Assembly: GCA_030739585.1 (NCBI GenBank)
Contig: JASLYX010000005.1
Coordinates: 78,804-121,775, forward strand
Length of the DNA stretch: 42,972 nt
Direction: 5' to 3'
From: Candidatus Bathyarchaeota archaeon
GTDB lineage: Archaea; Thermoproteota; Bathyarchaeia; TCS64
Under the pieces are notes generated by a model. The model worked only from the letters and a program-made list of their open reading frames with translations, made no database searches and was not told the DNA's origin. A program made the position numbers and the translations under genes. Positions 30,825-39,696 of the stretch are shown here, piece after piece. The number at the start of each line of letters is the position of its first letter. The stretch's first letter is position 1.

Positions 30825-32663
30825 ATGGCTGCACTCAGAAAACCCCTAGATGAGATGCAATACATCCTGGCAACCGACGTTGGAAGTACTACTACTAAAG
30901 CTCGGCTCTTTCATAAAAAAGATGGTAATTGGCGATTCCTCGTGGCTGGCGAGGCCCCTACCACTGTGGAGACCCCATACGAAGACGTAACCATGGGAGT
31001 CCAGAACGCAGTTCGGGAGATAGAGGAACTCACTGGTCACAGAATTCTTGCCCCGGATGGGAAAGGCATTGTGGTACCCTCTGATAGGAACGTAGGGGTA
31101 GATCTCTATTGCACAACTAGCAGCGCTGGGGGAGGCCTTCAGATGATGGTGGGTGGTTTAATCCAGTCGATGTCAGCAGAAAGCGCAAATAGGGCAGCCT
31201 TGGGCGCAGGCGCCATCGTGATGGACGTCATTGCTAGGGACGACGGTCGTATGCCCTACCAAAAGATCCAGAGAATCAGGAACCTCAGGCCAGACATGAT
31301 CCTCCTCGCTGGGGGTACTGACGGGGGCGCGTCGGGTCATGTCATGGAGATAGCTGAGCTTATAAAGGCCTCGGAGCCTAAGCCACGCCTCGGCATCGGC
31401 TACGAACTCCCCATCGTCTACGCAGGGAACAAGGCTCTAAGGACCCAGATCGAAAAGCTGATGGGGAAGGACTTTGCCCTAGACATGGTAGACAATATCA
31501 GACCTGTCTTAGAGGTGGAAAATACGGAGCCGGCTAGGCGTGCGGTCCATGAGCTTTTTATGGAGCACGTAATGAGCCACGCACCTGGCTATACCAAACT
31601 AATGGAGTGGACAGATGTTGATATCATGCCCACCCCGGCTGGAGAGGGGATAGCCATGCAGCTAATAGCAGATACGTATAAGCAAAACGTGCTTGGAGTA
31701 GGTCTCGGTGGTGCTACCACCAACGTTTACTCAGTAGTGGAGGGACGTTTTGTGAGGAGCGTCTCTGCAAACTTGGGCATGAGTTATAGCGTCACCAATG
31801 TGATGAAGGAGGCTGGGATCGACAAGATCATGAGGTGGATCCCCTTTAGCCTCGATAAAGAGGAGGTCTCTAGTCGGCTCATGAATAAGATGATTCGTCC
31901 CACCACTATCCCACAGACTCTGGAGGACCTAATAGTCGAGCATTCCGTGGCCCGGGAGGCCCTCCGGCTGGGGCTGGTCCACCATAGGACCATTGCTACC
32001 AGACTGAAAGGGGTACAGCTCGAACGGAGCATCGCGGATATGTTCAACCAGGAGGTGGAGGATACTTACGTCAAGATGATGGCCATTGACATCCTCGCCG
32101 GCACAGGAGGTCTCCTGAGCCACGCCCCTAGGAGGATCCAGAGTATGCTCATCCTCACCGATGCCTGGCAGCCCGAAGGTATCACCCGCATGTTCCAGGA
32201 CAGTGTCTTCATGATGCCCCACTTAGGGGTATTAGCCAGCACTATCCATAAAGAGGCAGCATGGAACATATTCGACAAAGATTGCCTAGTCCGCCTTGGG
32301 ACATGCATTGCCCCCGCAGGGACCGCCGAACTTGGTGAGCCAGTTCTGAAGGTTGAGATGACCCTGTCCGGAGGCGAGAGCCTAATAATGGAGCTAGATT
32401 TCGGCGAGGTAAAGCTGATACCCCTAGCCGAGGGACAGGAAGCGAAGGCCATCATCACCCCCGCAAAGCTGTTCGATATGGGCGATGGACCCGGAACCGC
32501 AGTGGAGCGGACCATCATGGGTGGTGTTGCCGGGGTTCTTCTTGACGCTAGGGGAAGACCATTGCATCTTCCTGAAGATGACGTGCAGAGGAAAGAGCTC
32601 TTGATTAAATGGTTTACTTCTCTGGGTCTTTACCCAGAGGAGAGGCTTAGGGAGCTAATTTGA
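30825..32663 (+). CDS. GlmL/MutL-like ASKHA ATPase (glutamate mutase accessory family)
   Basis: The 612-residue protein has the GlmL plan. ILATDVGSTTTKARLF at 14-29 is the first phosphate loop, YCTTSSAGGGLQMMVGG near 91-107, LLAGGTDGGASGH near 159-171, and GVGLGGATTNVYSVVEGRF the second phosphate loop. In clostridia GlmL accompanies the B12-dependent glutamate mutase and is thought to protect or reactivate it. No glmS, glmE or other B12 mutase is in the window. The name MutL in databases does not mean mismatch repair. Clostridial GlmL is shorter (about 460 residues). The gene is followed one base later by a KOW/barrel-sandwich protein, so the two are probably co-translated. Confidence 0.85.
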   Translation: MAALRKPLDEMQYILATDVGSTTTKARLFHKKDGNWRFLVAGEAPTTVETPYEDVTMGVQNAVREIEELTGHRILAPDGKGIVVPSDRNVGVDLYCTTSSAGGGLQMMVGGLIQSMSAESANRAALGAGAIVMDVIARDDGRMPYQKIQRIRNLRPDMILLAGGTDGGASGHVMEIAELIKASEPKPRLGIGYELPIVYAGNKALRTQIEKLMGKDFALDMVDNIRPVLEVENTEPARRAVHELFMEHVMSHAPGYTKLMEWTDVDIMPTPAGEGIAMQLIADTYKQNVLGVGLGGATTNVYSVVEGRFVRSVSANLGMSYSVTNVMKEAGIDKIMRWIPFSLDKEEVSSRLMNKMIRPTTIPQTLEDLIVEHSVAREALRLGLVHHRTIATRLKGVQLERSIADMFNQEVEDTYVKMMAIDILAGTGGLLSHAPRRIQSMLILTDAWQPEGITRMFQDSVFMMPHLGVLASTIHKEAAWNIFDKDCLVRLGTCIAPAGTAELGEPVLKVEMTLSGGESLIMELDFGEVKLIPLAEGQEAKAIITPAKLFDMGDGPGTAVERTIMGGVAGVLLDARGRPLHLPEDDVQRKELLIKWFTSLGLYPEERLRELI

Positions 32664-32664
32664 G

Positions 32665-33816
32665 ATGACCGACGAAAAGAACAAAATCCCAAAAGAAGCA
32701 CATGCATATACCCCGGGACTTAAAGTAAAACGCTTTGAGGCGGTAAAAAAGACCCGGAGGCTCCCGATCCATGGTAAAGTCTTTGTGAATGAGGGAGACT
32801 CCATCAACTATGAAGCGATCGTCGCCAAGACGGAGTTGAGTGGGAACCCAGAAATCGTAAAGGCTTCCAGGCTCCTCAACGTTGAGCCGGAGGTTCTTCC
32901 CCGTTATATGTTGAAGCATGTGGGAGACACTGTCAAGGAAGGTGAGACCATCGCCTCCTACTCTGCATTCTTTGGCCTTATCAACAAGAAGATCGTTTCC
33001 CCCTCCACAGGTACTATTGAGTCAATCTCTGAAATCAGTGGTCAGCTGATCATGAGAGGCGCTCCCATCCCCATCGAGGTGGACGCTTACATACCAGGCA
33101 AAGTTGTGAAGGTTATGCCCAACGAAGGAGCTGTCATCGAGACCAACGCGGCTTTCATCCAAGGCATCTTTGGGATCGGAGGGGAGGGCCATGGGACAAT
33201 TAAGATCGCTGTTGGATCACCCACAGATGTCCTCGACGGAGACGCCATAACTTCTGAAGATAGAGACAAAATACTTGTCGGGGGCTCCCTTGTTACCCTC
33301 GAGGCCATTGAAAAAGGAGCGGAACACGGAGTCTCATGTATAGTCAGTGGAGGTGTACTCCACGAAGACCTTACCTTATTCACAGGAGAGGAGGTTGGGG
33401 TTGCTATCACAGGCCAGGAGGAGCTTGGGATCACGCTCATCGTAACTGAGGGTTTCGGAAAAATGATGATGTCCCAGACCACATTTGACCTACTCCGCAG
33501 TTTTGATGGTTACGTCGCCTCGTTCAATGGGGCCACCCAAATCAGGGCGGGTGTCCTTCGACCTGAGATCATAATTCCCCATGAAGGAAAAAATGAAGGT
33601 GGATCAGAGGAGGCGCTCTTATCTGGGATTGTACCAGGAACTCCGGTTAGGATAATCAGGCAGCCCTTTTTCGGGGCTTTTGGAGAGGTGATAGATTTAC
33701 CCGTGGAGCTCAAGCAGCTAGAGTCAGAGTCCTTCGTTAGAGTCCTAAACGTCCGCCTCGCGGATGGATCCCTGGCTACAATACCAAGGGCCAATGTCGA
33801 GATAATTGAAGAGTAA
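32665..33816 (+). CDS. Unknown protein with barrel-sandwich-like and C-terminal KOW-like domains
   Basis: The start ATG is one base after the GlmL-like stop. The 383-residue protein begins with a stretch (about 15-155) that repeats beta-rich segments: VNEGDSINYEAIVAKTELSG, then KHVGDTVKEGETIASYSAFF and SPSTGTIESISEISGQLIMR. This resembles lipoyl/barrel-sandwich folds of HlyD or RnfC N-termini, but has no lipoyl-type lysine hairpin. The middle (about 175-300) is alpha/beta without a clear motif. The end (about 317-380) reads as a KOW/SH3-like barrel, from GIVPGTPVRIIRQPFFGAFG to LADGSLATIPRANVEIIE. Function is unknown. Tight coupling suggests it works with the GlmL-like ATPase. Confidence 0.75.
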   Translation: MTDEKNKIPKEAHAYTPGLKVKRFEAVKKTRRLPIHGKVFVNEGDSINYEAIVAKTELSGNPEIVKASRLLNVEPEVLPRYMLKHVGDTVKEGETIASYSAFFGLINKKIVSPSTGTIESISEISGQLIMRGAPIPIEVDAYIPGKVVKVMPNEGAVIETNAAFIQGIFGIGGEGHGTIKIAVGSPTDVLDGDAITSEDRDKILVGGSLVTLEAIEKGAEHGVSCIVSGGVLHEDLTLFTGEEVGVAITGQEELGITLIVTEGFGKMMMSQTTFDLLRSFDGYVASFNGATQIRAGVLRPEIIIPHEGKNEGGSEEALLSGIVPGTPVRIIRQPFFGAFGEVIDLPVELKQLESESFVRVLNVRLADGSLATIPRANVEIIEE

Positions 33817-33950: not shown

Positions 33951-34270
33951 ATAAAGAAAGTTGTCATTACTGCAGTTATATGTGATGAAACTATCCGCGA
34001 AAAGAAATCCCACGTACCCTATTCTTTCAAAGAAACCGCGGGCTCCACTGTCAATGCTGAAAGGGCGGGAGCATTTATCGTCATCTCAACGCAAAGAACC
34101 AATACATCAATTCCCCCGCGTGCAGTGAGGTTTTAACTCGCGTGACCGGAGGCCCAGCAAGGATAGGCCTTGACAACTGCATCTACATGGGGAACGAAAA
34201 AATCTCACAAAGCAATATAAATCTAGTCTGCAAGACTGGTAGGCTCACCGAAGAACTTGTTCCAGGATAG
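33951..34270 (+). pseudogene. Remnant of a beta-keto acid cleavage enzyme (BKACE/DUF849)
   Basis: Codons from 33951 give VVITAVICDETIREKKSHVP, then SFKETAGSTVNAERAGAFIV, the N-terminal strand and early helix of BKACE enzymes (3-keto-5-aminohexanoate cleavage enzyme family), ending at TAA 34134. In another phase, 34148-34270 gives GGPARIGLDNCIYMGNEKIS and LVCKTGRLTEEL, the C-terminal signature of the same family. About 200 internal codons are missing and the initiator position is ATA (33951-33953). So a family member of about 280-300 codons has collapsed to about 320 bases by internal deletion. It ends just before the first AOR gene. Confidence 0.75.
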
Positions 34271-34335
34271 ACTCATTGTATCAAATCCGGAAGATGCTGG
34301 GAACCAATTCAGCTCTCCAGTGAATCAGAGACACA

Positions 34336-34344
34336 TTTTATATC
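34336..34344 (+). promoter_or_regulatory. TATA box of the first AOR gene
   Basis: The bases TTTTATATC are centred near 34340. Transcription would begin near 34366, 11 bases before TTG 34377, which supports the shorter start for this AOR. Confidence 0.5.
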
Positions 34345-34376
34345 TTTTCGCGAGAGGCTTATCTATTGAATCGAAT

Positions 34377-36251
34377 TTGTACGGTCTAAATGGACGGATC
34401 CTCAGAGTTAACCTCAGCGACGAGAGTTCCAAGACGGACTCCTTCTCTGAGGACTATGCCAAGAAATTCATTGGGGGAAAAGGCTTTGCTATAGACCTTC
34501 TATATAAGGAGCTTTCCCCGGGAATCAAACCCCTAGGCCCAGAAAATAAGCTCGTCTTTTCCACGGGTCCTCTGAACGCCACAGGAATCCCAGGGGACAC
34601 CCGGTTTGTCGTCGCAGGAAAATCCCCTCTTACGGGGATCTGGGGGGAAGGGAACTGCTCTGGATGGTTCGCCGACAGCCTCAAGAAATCCGGGTATGAT
34701 GCCCTCGTGGTTGAGGGAACTAGCAAAAAGCCGGTTTACATATGGATAAACGATGATGTTGTCGAGGTGAGACCTGCGGAGCACCTCTGGGGGAAGTGGA
34801 CTCTCGAGACTGAGAAGTTGATAAAGGAAGAGGTAGGTATAAACGCAAGTGTTGTGGCGGAGGGCCCTGCTGCTGAGAACCTGGTTGCCTTCTCGGCGGT
34901 GACCCACACTGCCCATAGGGCTGCCGGCAGGACAGGGTTAGGGGCGGTAATGGGCTCTAAGAAGCTGAAGGCGATAGCCGCTTTAGGCACTGGAAAGGTC
35001 GCCGTCGCGAATCCAGATAAGGTCCAGGAGCTGAGGACCAACATTGTTAAAGAAACCTTCGTGGCCGAGTTCACCACGGTACTTCGGGAACACGGTCAGG
35101 CGGGTTTCGTCATGGATCTCCATAACGACGGGATACTCCCCACCCGGAACTTCCAGAGCGGCGTTTTCGATGGCGCCAAGGCTATCTCGGGACAGACCAT
35201 GACGGAGACTATTCTTAAAAGAAGGGAGGCCTGCCCAAGGTGCCCGGTGGCCTGTAAGAGGATGGTCGAGGTTACCGAGGGGCCCTTTGCCCCCGTCTTA
35301 CCAGAGTACGGTGGTCCCGAATATGAGAACGTGGCTGCACTGGGGTCTCTGCTGGGCGTGGACCGTCTGGACGCAGTTTGTAGGATGAATATGCTCTGCA
35401 ATGCCTATAGTCTGGACACCATCTCCGCTGGAGTGTGCATCGCCTGGGCCATGGAGTGCTTTGAGGCTGGCATCATCACTACAGAAGACACCGACGGTCT
35501 GGAGCTTACCTTTGGAAACGCCAAGGCCGCTGTCAAGATGGTGGAGAAGATCGCTCTCAAGGAAGGTTTCGGTGCAATCTTCAGCGAGGGGCTTTCTAAA
35601 GCCGCAGAGAAGATCGGAAAGGGATCAGAGAGATTTGCCGTGGAGGTAAAGCGTCTTGAGCTACCTATGCACGAGCCCCGTGGCAAGAAAGGCCTCGGGC
35701 TGATGTATGCCGTCTCCAACAGGGGGGGTTGCCACATGCAGAGCATGCACGACCCGGACCTAGAGTCCCCGAACATGGCCCCCGAGATCGGTATTAGCGT
35801 GCCCCTCCACCGTCTAGACACGTCGAGGAAGAAGGTGATCGCTATGAAGAAAACCTCCGACTGGACTGCCATGATCAACTCCACGGGGATCTGCTCAAAC
35901 ATCTACTGGTTCGGCTCTGTCTATTACAGGCCCCTCCACCAGGTGGAAATCCTCAACGCGGTGACGGGCTGGGGTCTTTCCGTGGACGAGTACATGAATG
36001 CTGGCGAGCGCATTAACACCTACTGTAGGGCCTTCAACGCAAGGGAGGGGGTCACTCGGAATGACGACAAGCTCCCCCACAGACTCATGGAGCCCTTGAT
36101 TGGGGGACCTACGCATGGGCAATCCATATCCCAAGAAGAATTAGACTCGATGCTTGACTCCTACTACGAGATCTGTGGCTGGGACAAGGTGACGGGGATC
36201 CCAACGAAGGAGAGGCTCAACAAGCTAGGCCTCGGCTTCATCAACCTGTAA
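34377..36251 (+). CDS. Aldehyde:ferredoxin oxidoreductase family protein (AOR 1)
   Basis: From TTG 34377 the protein has 624 residues and begins MYGLNGRILRVNLSDES, the usual AOR start; the frame stays open to 34257 but that part overlaps the BKACE relic and is not AOR-like. The cluster ligands are C286-x2-C289-x3-C293 (CPRCPVAC), nearly identical in position to Pyrococcus AOR (288, 291, 295), with C506 in STGICSN as the fourth. FIGGKGFAIDLLYKEL, AHRAAGRTGLGAVMGSKKLKAI and the late MHEPRGKKG match the pterin-binding and structural parts. AORs hold a tungsten (or Mo) bis-pterin and oxidise aldehydes to acids with ferredoxin. A separate ferredoxin-like subunit is not next to it. Substrate is unknown. 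Confidence 0.92.
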   Translation: MYGLNGRILRVNLSDESSKTDSFSEDYAKKFIGGKGFAIDLLYKELSPGIKPLGPENKLVFSTGPLNATGIPGDTRFVVAGKSPLTGIWGEGNCSGWFADSLKKSGYDALVVEGTSKKPVYIWINDDVVEVRPAEHLWGKWTLETEKLIKEEVGINASVVAEGPAAENLVAFSAVTHTAHRAAGRTGLGAVMGSKKLKAIAALGTGKVAVANPDKVQELRTNIVKETFVAEFTTVLREHGQAGFVMDLHNDGILPTRNFQSGVFDGAKAISGQTMTETILKRREACPRCPVACKRMVEVTEGPFAPVLPEYGGPEYENVAALGSLLGVDRLDAVCRMNMLCNAYSLDTISAGVCIAWAMECFEAGIITTEDTDGLELTFGNAKAAVKMVEKIALKEGFGAIFSEGLSKAAEKIGKGSERFAVEVKRLELPMHEPRGKKGLGLMYAVSNRGGCHMQSMHDPDLESPNMAPEIGISVPLHRLDTSRKKVIAMKKTSDWTAMINSTGICSNIYWFGSVYYRPLHQVEILNAVTGWGLSVDEYMNAGERINTYCRAFNAREGVTRNDDKLPHRLMEPLIGGPTHGQSISQEELDSMLDSYYEICGWDKVTGIPTKERLNKLGLGFINL

Positions 36252-37848: not shown

Positions 37849-39696
37849 ATGTCCGCGGAGGTTAAAGGTTACGCAGGTAAAATGCTGAGAGTCGATCTCA
37901 CAGAGGAAAAAACTTGGGATTGGTTCCCCGCTGAAGAAACCCTCAGAAAATATCTCGGAGGGACAGGGATAGGTGCCAAGATTTTGTACGACGAGGTTCC
38001 ACCGAATGCTGACTGGTCAGACCCCGTCAACAGGATGACTATCGCCAGCGGTCCCTTAGGTGGTACCAGCATAGGGGGGTCCAGTACTGTTTCTATCGTT
38101 ACCAAAGGTGCCCTAACGGGGGGATCCACCTCGGTGCAGGCCAACGGCCTCATGGGCGCGTACATGAAGTTCTCGGGATACGACGGTGTCATTCTACAGG
38201 GAGCCTCCAAGACCTGGAAATATCTTGTGCTTATGGACGGGAAAGCCGAGTTGAGGGACGCGACAAAGTTCCTGGGCTTGGACACTTACGAGACCTACGA
38301 TACCATCAGCGAGGAACATGGGGAGAAGGGGAGGGGGGCTAGCGTCCTCTCCATTGGCCCCGCTGGGGAGAACAAGGTGAGATGGGCCGGTGTCTTTGTG
38401 GATCACGGCCACTCGGCGTCCCACAATGGGGCTGGGGCCGTGATGGGCTCGAAAAAGCTCAAGGCGATCATAGCTTTTAGGGGGGGAGGGAGCATCTCTG
38501 TGGCCCACCCTGAGGAACTGCAAAAAGTTTCTCAAAAGATGTACCAGGACGTTGAGTACTTTACTGGGACCCTGGGCGGAGTCGAGCGCAGCTATAAATC
38601 GAGCCGTGGAACTCTCCCCGTGAAGAACTACACCACAAACACGTGGAACGTATCGGGGAAACACGCTAATACCTACGGGGAGAAGTACATCCGGGACAAA
38701 TACCAGGTTGGCAGGGAGCCGTGCTGGGCCTGTAAGCTCCTCCACTGCACCATGATGAAATTTAACGGTCCCCACGCTGCATACGTTGAGGAGCCGGAGT
38801 ACGAGCAGATGGCAGCTTGGGGCCCACTAATCGGGCAATCCAACGTGGAGGCAACAATGATGCTCAGTGGCCTTACAGACCGACTAGGCCTTGAGAACAA
38901 CGAGGCCGGTTGGCTCACAGGTTGGATGATGGAGTGCTTCGAAAAGGGCTGGCTTACTTCTAAAGAGACTATGGGATTCGAGCTCAACTGGGGTGACGTC
39001 GAGGGAGTCAAGAAGATGCTTCACATGATCTCCAACCGTGAAGGCTTCGGGGACGTCCTCGCTGAAGGGGTAAAGCGGGCATCGGAGTGGATCGGGGGCC
39101 CCGCCGCCAAGGCTGCTATCTACACCATGAAGGGAAACACCCCAAGGGGCCATGATCACAGGACCCGCTGGGCGGAGATGTTTGACACCTCTGTCAGTAG
39201 CACAAGCACCATAGAGACAAACACCGGCTCTCACCCCCTGGGCCCGGAGACCCAAGGCCCTGCCAACCCCCTCAAGGTCTCTACAGCCGTCGCGGAGACG
39301 AAAGGCCTGATGCAACTGGAGGACTCTGTGGGCACTTGTCGCTTCAATACCCGGATGAACCTCAAGCACCTCTCGGCGGCGGTGGCGGCCGCTACAGGCT
39401 GGGACTTCGACGGGGAGGAGGGGATGAGGGCGGGGCGGAGGGTGGTCAACCTGATGAGGGCGTATAACCTCAGGACGGGGTTAGGTAAGGAATACGATCA
39501 CCCCTCCGCCAGATACGGATCGACACCGGTGGACGGCCCATCGGCTGGAATAAGTATCCTCCCCCATTGGGAGGCGATGCTGAGGAACTATTATGAGCTT
39601 ATGGGATGGGACCCGGATACGGGGATACCCTCTGCTTTAACTCTGGAATACTTGGGCATAGGCTACGTTAACGAGGATCTGGAGAAGCTCAGGTAG
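37849..39696 (+). CDS. Aldehyde:ferredoxin oxidoreductase family protein (AOR 2)
   Basis: The 615-residue protein begins MSAEVKGYAGKMLRVDLTEE, and ATG 37849 fits the family start. It has the AOR segments YLGGTGIGAKILYDEVPP, ASHNGAGAVMGSKKLKAI and a C-terminal helical part. The cluster motif reads CWACKLLHC: C292-x2-C295-x4-C300, with C497 in VGTCRFN as the fourth ligand. That is one residue longer than the usual C-x2-C-x3-C, so either the loop bulges or the subfamily differs from classical AOR. GAAAATATTTTTTATG about 35-45 bases before the start is a likely promoter. It is clearly diverged from AOR 1, so the two probably have different substrates. Confidence 0.9.
   Translation: MSAEVKGYAGKMLRVDLTEEKTWDWFPAEETLRKYLGGTGIGAKILYDEVPPNADWSDPVNRMTIASGPLGGTSIGGSSTVSIVTKGALTGGSTSVQANGLMGAYMKFSGYDGVILQGASKTWKYLVLMDGKAELRDATKFLGLDTYETYDTISEEHGEKGRGASVLSIGPAGENKVRWAGVFVDHGHSASHNGAGAVMGSKKLKAIIAFRGGGSISVAHPEELQKVSQKMYQDVEYFTGTLGGVERSYKSSRGTLPVKNYTTNTWNVSGKHANTYGEKYIRDKYQVGREPCWACKLLHCTMMKFNGPHAAYVEEPEYEQMAAWGPLIGQSNVEATMMLSGLTDRLGLENNEAGWLTGWMMECFEKGWLTSKETMGFELNWGDVEGVKKMLHMISNREGFGDVLAEGVKRASEWIGGPAAKAAIYTMKGNTPRGHDHRTRWAEMFDTSVSSTSTIETNTGSHPLGPETQGPANPLKVSTAVAETKGLMQLEDSVGTCRFNTRMNLKHLSAAVAAATGWDFDGEEGMRAGRRVVNLMRAYNLRTGLGKEYDHPSARYGSTPVDGPSAGISILPHWEAMLRNYYELMGWDPDTGIPSALTLEYLGIGYVNEDLEKLR

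Follow-up and report, generated by a model that had tools for sequence, protein, structure and literature searches.

GlmL, EutA, and DdrA are regarded as ATP-dependent chaperones or reactivases of B12 enzymes, and ASKHA ATPases, which are of the actin/Hsp70 type, are usually slow switches. A gene for an ASKHA-type protein lies in the window, the whole 42,972-nucleotide stretch of Candidatus Bathyarchaeota DNA that we analyzed, which comes from a 1.69-Mb genome that is 95% complete. A first-pass annotation had called this protein GlmL-like and had suggested that it forms an uncharacterized two-part system with the product of the following gene. We refer to the two proteins as M and P (Table 1). 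A single base separates the TGA of M (end, 32663) from the ATG of P (start, 32665), as that annotation had it, and the adjacency far exceeds chance, recurring in archaea and in many bacterial phyla. Upstream, on the opposite strand, are a gene with an RNase P Rpr2 domain, a TP_methylase gene (which we take to be Dph5-like), and a cytidylyltransferase-like gene, while two aldehyde ferredoxin oxidoreductase (AOR) genes and a cyclase gene lie downstream.

Table 1. Features of the M-P locus, natural M-P fusions, and the quartet of the same genome
Feature	Position	Strand	Evidence
M, MutL/GlmL-fold ASKHA ATPase, 612 aa	30825..32663	+	ORF; Pfam MutL
P, obligate partner of M, 383 aa	32665..33816	+	ORF one base past M; 82 adjacent pairs; fusions
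P, N-terminal barrel-sandwich-like part, residues about 20-142, two V..GD.V...T..A-type repeats	32722..33090	+	Pfam Biotin_lipoyl, AlphaFold2 strands
P, central alpha/beta part, residues about 201-305	33265..33579	+	Alignments, AlphaFold2
P, C-terminal KOW/SH3-like barrel, residues about 327-383	33643..33813	+	Foldseek
AOR genes, downstream of M-P	window 34257-36251 and 37849-39696
Natural M-P fusion, one frame, bacterial, 856 aa	L247 3795-6365
Natural M-P fusion, one frame, bacterial, 921 aa	L327 8268-11033
c6 and one complete quartet, other contig of the window's genome	G000:C4 about 55.6-59.1 kb (L202 7569-11086)

M matched the Pfam MutL family (PF13941) over the complete profile (1-450 of 450) with an E value of 2e-115 and a score of 386.5 bits against a gathering threshold of 27. 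The ASKHA phosphate-1 and phosphate-2 motifs (DVGSTTTKA and GGATTNV, the latter as GGATTN) are kept across 92 relatives, and from them we predict that M has ATPase activity. However, M stayed below the cutoffs of all three narrower NCBIfam models: 210 bits against 475 for the GlmL equivalog and 208.5 against 600 for Or-4 (NF040745 and NF040744, the GlmL and Or-4 entries), and 138.9 against 204 for the GlmL family (subfamily) model. M also carries a C-terminal extension of about 120 residues, from about residue 488, that was present in 112 of the 114 M-related proteins longer than 450 aa; the other two were one true Or-4 and one M-P fusion. An internal control that sets M apart from Or-4 was provided by a Bacillota genome (G367), where the true Or-4 (610.3 bits against the NCBIfam cutoff of 600) adjoins OraE (1335 bits against 800) and has neither a P neighbor nor the C-terminal extension. 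The same genome also encodes four M proteins, with P beside each. Thus, the GlmL-like label was right for the fold and wrong for the subfamily: judged by its sequence, M is a MutL-fold protein of a subfamily separate from GlmL and Or-4. M itself is a new subfamily within a known fold family, and the database naming is corrected accordingly, in that GlmL/MutL-family proteins of the M type are not mutase factors.

The first-pass annotation had also seen no B12 mutase nearby, and we found no mutase gene among the annotated genes of the window. Extending the search to the genome gave the same answer: glutamate mutase (PF06368) had no match in the window's own genome or in 30 relatives, and methylmalonyl-CoA mutase (PF01642) had none in the own genome, which leaves the ATPase not accounted for by a mutase elsewhere. 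The only match to the B12-binding domain in the genome was a short corrinoid-protein-like frame with an in-frame TAG (L249:8435-9439; G000:C4:70972-71310), which is possibly a pseudogene or contains a pyrrolysine codon.

P was present in 31 of 61 Bathyarchaeia genomes, and M above the family cutoff accompanied it in 30 of these; no genome among the 61 had such an M without P. All seven P-bearing genomes among 300 Thermoproteota had M, as did 21 of the 22 bacterial genomes with P. The possibility raised earlier, that P might occur mostly without the ATPase, therefore did not hold. We also rejected P as an orphan family, since M was encoded elsewhere in 17 of the 18 bacterial genomes with a stand-alone P. 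The distances among M and among P proteins were correlated in a mirror-tree comparison of 82 adjacent pairs (r = 0.80; at most 0.21 in 500 shuffles), and two bacterial genes join M and P in one frame (Table 1). When contigs were searched for P homologues, the window's P as a single query returned nothing and an alignment-based search returned matches, with more than 570 P loci in public genomes from many bacterial phyla. The pair was seen in Bathyarchaeia, Culexarchaeia, Bacillota, WOR-3/Stahlbacteria, Zixibacteria, Poribacteria, Armatimonadota, and others, with about 50% identity between the archaeal and bacterial proteins. That M and P act together is, on these data, close to established.

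An AlphaFold2 model of P built from a 62-row alignment (mean pLDDT, 86.6) contains a beta-rich region (residues 20 to 181), an alpha/beta region (about 200 to 305), and, beyond a disordered linker, a small barrel (about 327 to 383). The barrel gave the only convincing Foldseek match in the protein, to Spt5/NusG KOW domains (Spt5 KOW5; probability 1.0, TM score 0.85 across about 55 residues), in agreement with the KOW-like C terminus proposed from the sequence; a second subtype of P, about 290 aa long, is without this tail. The likeness to lipoyl domains and RnfC that had been proposed for the beta-rich segments is real at the level of the fold and goes no further. The match to Pfam Biotin_lipoyl was weak (residues 82 to 135; 24.6 bits, cutoff 22.1), and those to RnfC_N (18 bits, cutoff 25.6) and TIGR01945 (12.6 bits, cutoff 245.95) were below threshold. 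The hairpin column varies among K, N, T, and R in a 28-member alignment and is absent from the conserved list of the 62-member alignment. Because the lipoyl-type hairpin is without a conserved lysine, we rejected P as a lipoyl or biotin carrier protein. The most conserved stretch in both alignments is instead the central alpha/beta part (VGGS..T...L.KA, TGxE, TEGFG, and GATQIRAGV.RPE), which had no match of its own in the PDB at an E value below 0.001 with Foldseek. Searching the PDB by sequence with P, M, or DUF6754 turned up nothing convincing.

A survey of the gene neighborhoods at 40 Bathyarchaeia loci revealed a recurring membrane quartet, DUF6754 (PF20539), m4, m3, and m2, in that order, together with a small protein of about 125 aa, c6. 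The quartet adjoins M-P at about half of these loci, and in bacteria the operon order c6-M-P-DUF6754-m4-m3-m2 was found (L147 and L192; likewise L160, in which c6 was not called). No quartet adjoins M-P within the window; c6 and one complete quartet lie on another contig of the genome (Table 1), so that M, P, and DUF6754-m4-m3-m2 are all present. The m4 and m2 proteins have multiple transmembrane helices, and DUF6754 and m3 each have two that flank a soluble domain; by the positive-inside rule, the alpha/beta domain of DUF6754 would be cytosolic and the soluble domain of m3 would lie outside. DUF6754 and m3 are remotely alike (HHalign E value 4.5e-5, probability 69%), and m4, m3, and m2 had no significant Pfam match. 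The structure model of DUF6754 was good (pLDDT, 88.3) but had only weak Rossmann/SIS-like matches in the PDB, none at an E value below 0.001, and for this reason we drew no function from its fold. We rejected the quartet as a redox complex on the grounds that it has no conserved Cys/His set, single Cys or His columns reaching 58 to 79%. Many bacterial DUF6754 proteins have, by eye, an N-terminal extension resembling a signal peptide and FnIII-type domains; one of 914 aa (L188:11112-13853) has a long extension resembling repeated FnIII-type domains. In a jejunum bacterium, one operon (L191:11179-18093) holds four m3 copies together with M, P, DUF6754, m4, and m2. We found no paper on DUF6754 or its operon in the open-access literature searched, in which the whole system is undescribed; it is new as an assembly.

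P and DUF6754 were distributed alike. In the 61 Bathyarchaeia genomes, both were present in 28, both were absent in 28, and five were mismatched (Fisher p = 9e-12, a value that ignores relatedness). The mismatches were mostly in incomplete genomes, including three with P in which DUF6754 was not found (G039, G017, and G023). Among the 300 Thermoproteota, M, P, and DUF6754 occurred in the same seven genomes, and 21 of the 22 bacterial genomes with P had DUF6754. The association of M-P with the quartet is thus well supported, and the two-part system proposed earlier holds as a paired ATPase/beta-barrel unit without a mutase but falls short in extent, because the DUF6754 complex belongs to it as well and the pair makes up only its soluble half. 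The two halves differ in number. The window's genome has one DUF6754 and one M-P, yet many genomes have one M-P and 3 to 7 quartets beside different catabolic genes. Six or seven DUF6754 genes accompany a single M-P in three genomes (G114, G184, and G207), and in G014, fifteen DUF6754 genes are found with three M-P pairs; the quartets thus reach 15 copies per genome.

The order of the quartet stays constant beside amidohydrolases, M20/M28/M81 peptidases, PycB-like genes, acyl-CoA dehydrogenase with HdrBC-like genes, and CODH/ACS-like, POR-like, and AOR genes, several of them named by eye. Among the matches listed, amidohydrolases and peptidases made up about 20 of 99 genes near quartets versus about 6 to 8 of 91 genes farther away, a modest, hand-counted enrichment (p = 0.01 to 0.04 by Fisher tests that ignore relatedness). 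A quartet from the same genus as the window (L334) adjoins two AOR-like genes, and two M-P pairs (L083 and L091) adjoin a gene of the AOR cluster. In several bacterial phyla, c6-M directly follows gcvT, gcvH, gcvPA, and gcvPB, often with a lipoate-protein ligase gene (L147, L160, L162, L192, L196, L231, and L242). Upstream of the short-subtype pairs (P of about 290 aa and M of about 590 aa; L078, L079, L080, L087, L088, L094, L099, and L100) lies a gene for an ArsR-type regulator that is transcribed divergently, and the genes flanking these pairs include a quartet at L088 only. The short-subtype pairs may be a separate system; because they lie mostly away from quartets and near an ArsR-like regulator, some M-P pairs may act otherwise.

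We tentatively favor a reading in which M-P, driven by ATP, activates or gates a multicopy membrane complex from the cytosol and in which this complex most likely represents a family of transporters for small molecules, although our confidence in it falls a little short of even. M and P would form one complex in which P is the fixed adaptor for the ASKHA ATPase. From the cytosol, this complex would act on a membrane complex of DUF6754, m4, m3, and m2, with c6 as a further part, and P would touch it through its central part or its KOW tail. A single M-P would serve several quartets, and each quartet would carry small metabolites, such as amino acid, peptide, or amide derivatives or organic acids. 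Binding and hydrolysis of ATP by M-P would switch the complex into its working state, with M-P as gate, activator, or motor. Transport appears the most likely role given that the quartets occur in multiple copies, each with different catabolic genes alongside. That M-P works with the quartet has strong support, but their physical contact is inferred, as are transport itself, its direction and substrates, and the ATP step. Some observations count against this reading. The window's own pair lies apart from a quartet, as do most of the short-subtype pairs. The quartet proteins showed no resemblance to known transporters (by the PDB fold search for DUF6754 and by Pfam for m4, m3, and m2), we know of no ASKHA ATPase that directly powers small-molecule transport, and the position of c6-M after the glycine cleavage genes in several bacteria is not obviously explained by it.

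The chief alternative, which we consider possible though somewhat unlikely, gives M-P the role of a chaperone or reactivase that depends on ATP: it would build or mend the DUF6754 complex, whatever the function of that complex, but would not power it. The characterized MutL-fold relatives of M are accessory factors, the slow switching usual for ASKHA ATPases fits such a role, and one M-P for many quartets suits a shared maintenance factor. However, the strict one-to-one pairing with P, the fusions, and the presence of M-P inside single quartet operons suit a stoichiometric part equally well, and no B12 mutase is involved. Distinctly less probable is a quartet that serves as a membrane anchor or scaffold for catabolic enzymes (glycine cleavage, AOR, POR, CODH/ACS, and amidohydrolases) and whose assembly M-P would control in the manner of an actin-type filament. 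Central oxidative enzymes do adjoin in several lineages, and AOR genes are found beside both the window's M-P and the same-genus quartet, but one quartet architecture is combined with widely varying neighbors, and an anchor needs less than two subunits with multiple transmembrane helices. We find it very unlikely that M-P services GcvH or lipoate transfer with P imitating a lipoyl domain. This would suit the bacterial groups in which c6-M-P stands beside gcvT-H-PA-PB and lplA, and one M-P fusion gene that is two genes from a lipA-like ORF (by eye); however, the gcv/lplA context was not seen at the archaeal loci, many unrelated enzymes stand beside quartets, and P is without a conserved lysine for lipoate. 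Finally, the reading of M as a regular accessory factor of the GlmL type for a B12 mutase encoded at another locus, with P a chance neighbor, as the MutL fold and the database family names might suggest, is already refuted, unless an unrecognized class of mutase exists, by the failure to find a mutase in the genome (PF06368 and PF01642), by the NCBIfam cutoffs that M misses, by the true Or-4 of the Bacillota genome, which reaches its cutoff without P or the extension, and by the retention of P alongside M in two domains of life.

Returning to the activator or gate that we favor, its strongest form would be a new class of transport system, spread over archaea and many bacterial phyla, in which interchangeable four-subunit transporters are driven by an ASKHA ATPase and its barrel-sandwich adaptor, one engine with many substrate modules; this we regard as rather doubtful. 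If M-P does power or gate transport, we know of no earlier ASKHA ATPase with such a role, and many uncultured archaea would have an unrecognized route of uptake or export. Both the conservation and the copy number of the system point to a fundamental role in anaerobic microbes and those living in sediments.

Compared with known systems, M has the full-length MutL ASKHA fold and the phosphate motifs in common with GlmL of glutamate (methylaspartate) mutase and Or-4 of ornithine aminomutase. However, it scores well under half of their equivalog cutoffs, adds a C-terminal domain, and has an obligate partner in P, with no mutase found in the genome. The reactivating factors EutA and DdrA likewise have an ASKHA fold and are thought to be ATP-driven switches that act on a partner complex, whereas the match of M to Pfam EutA was marginal (E value 0.14) and we saw no link to a B12 eliminase. 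The N-terminal part of P has the barrel-sandwich fold of RnfC N-terminal and lipoyl domains but is without the carrier lysine and without SLBB or FeS parts, and its RnfC score is below threshold. The last 55 or so residues of P share the KOW fold of NusG/Spt5, but P has no NGN domain, its remainder is unrelated, and the tail is missing in the short subtype. The M-P/quartet system has no ABC ATPases and no sequence relation to ECF-type vitamin transporters; if it does transport small molecules, as we infer, it would resemble them in logic only, in that many membrane modules, presumably for different substrates, would share a single unit that uses ATP.
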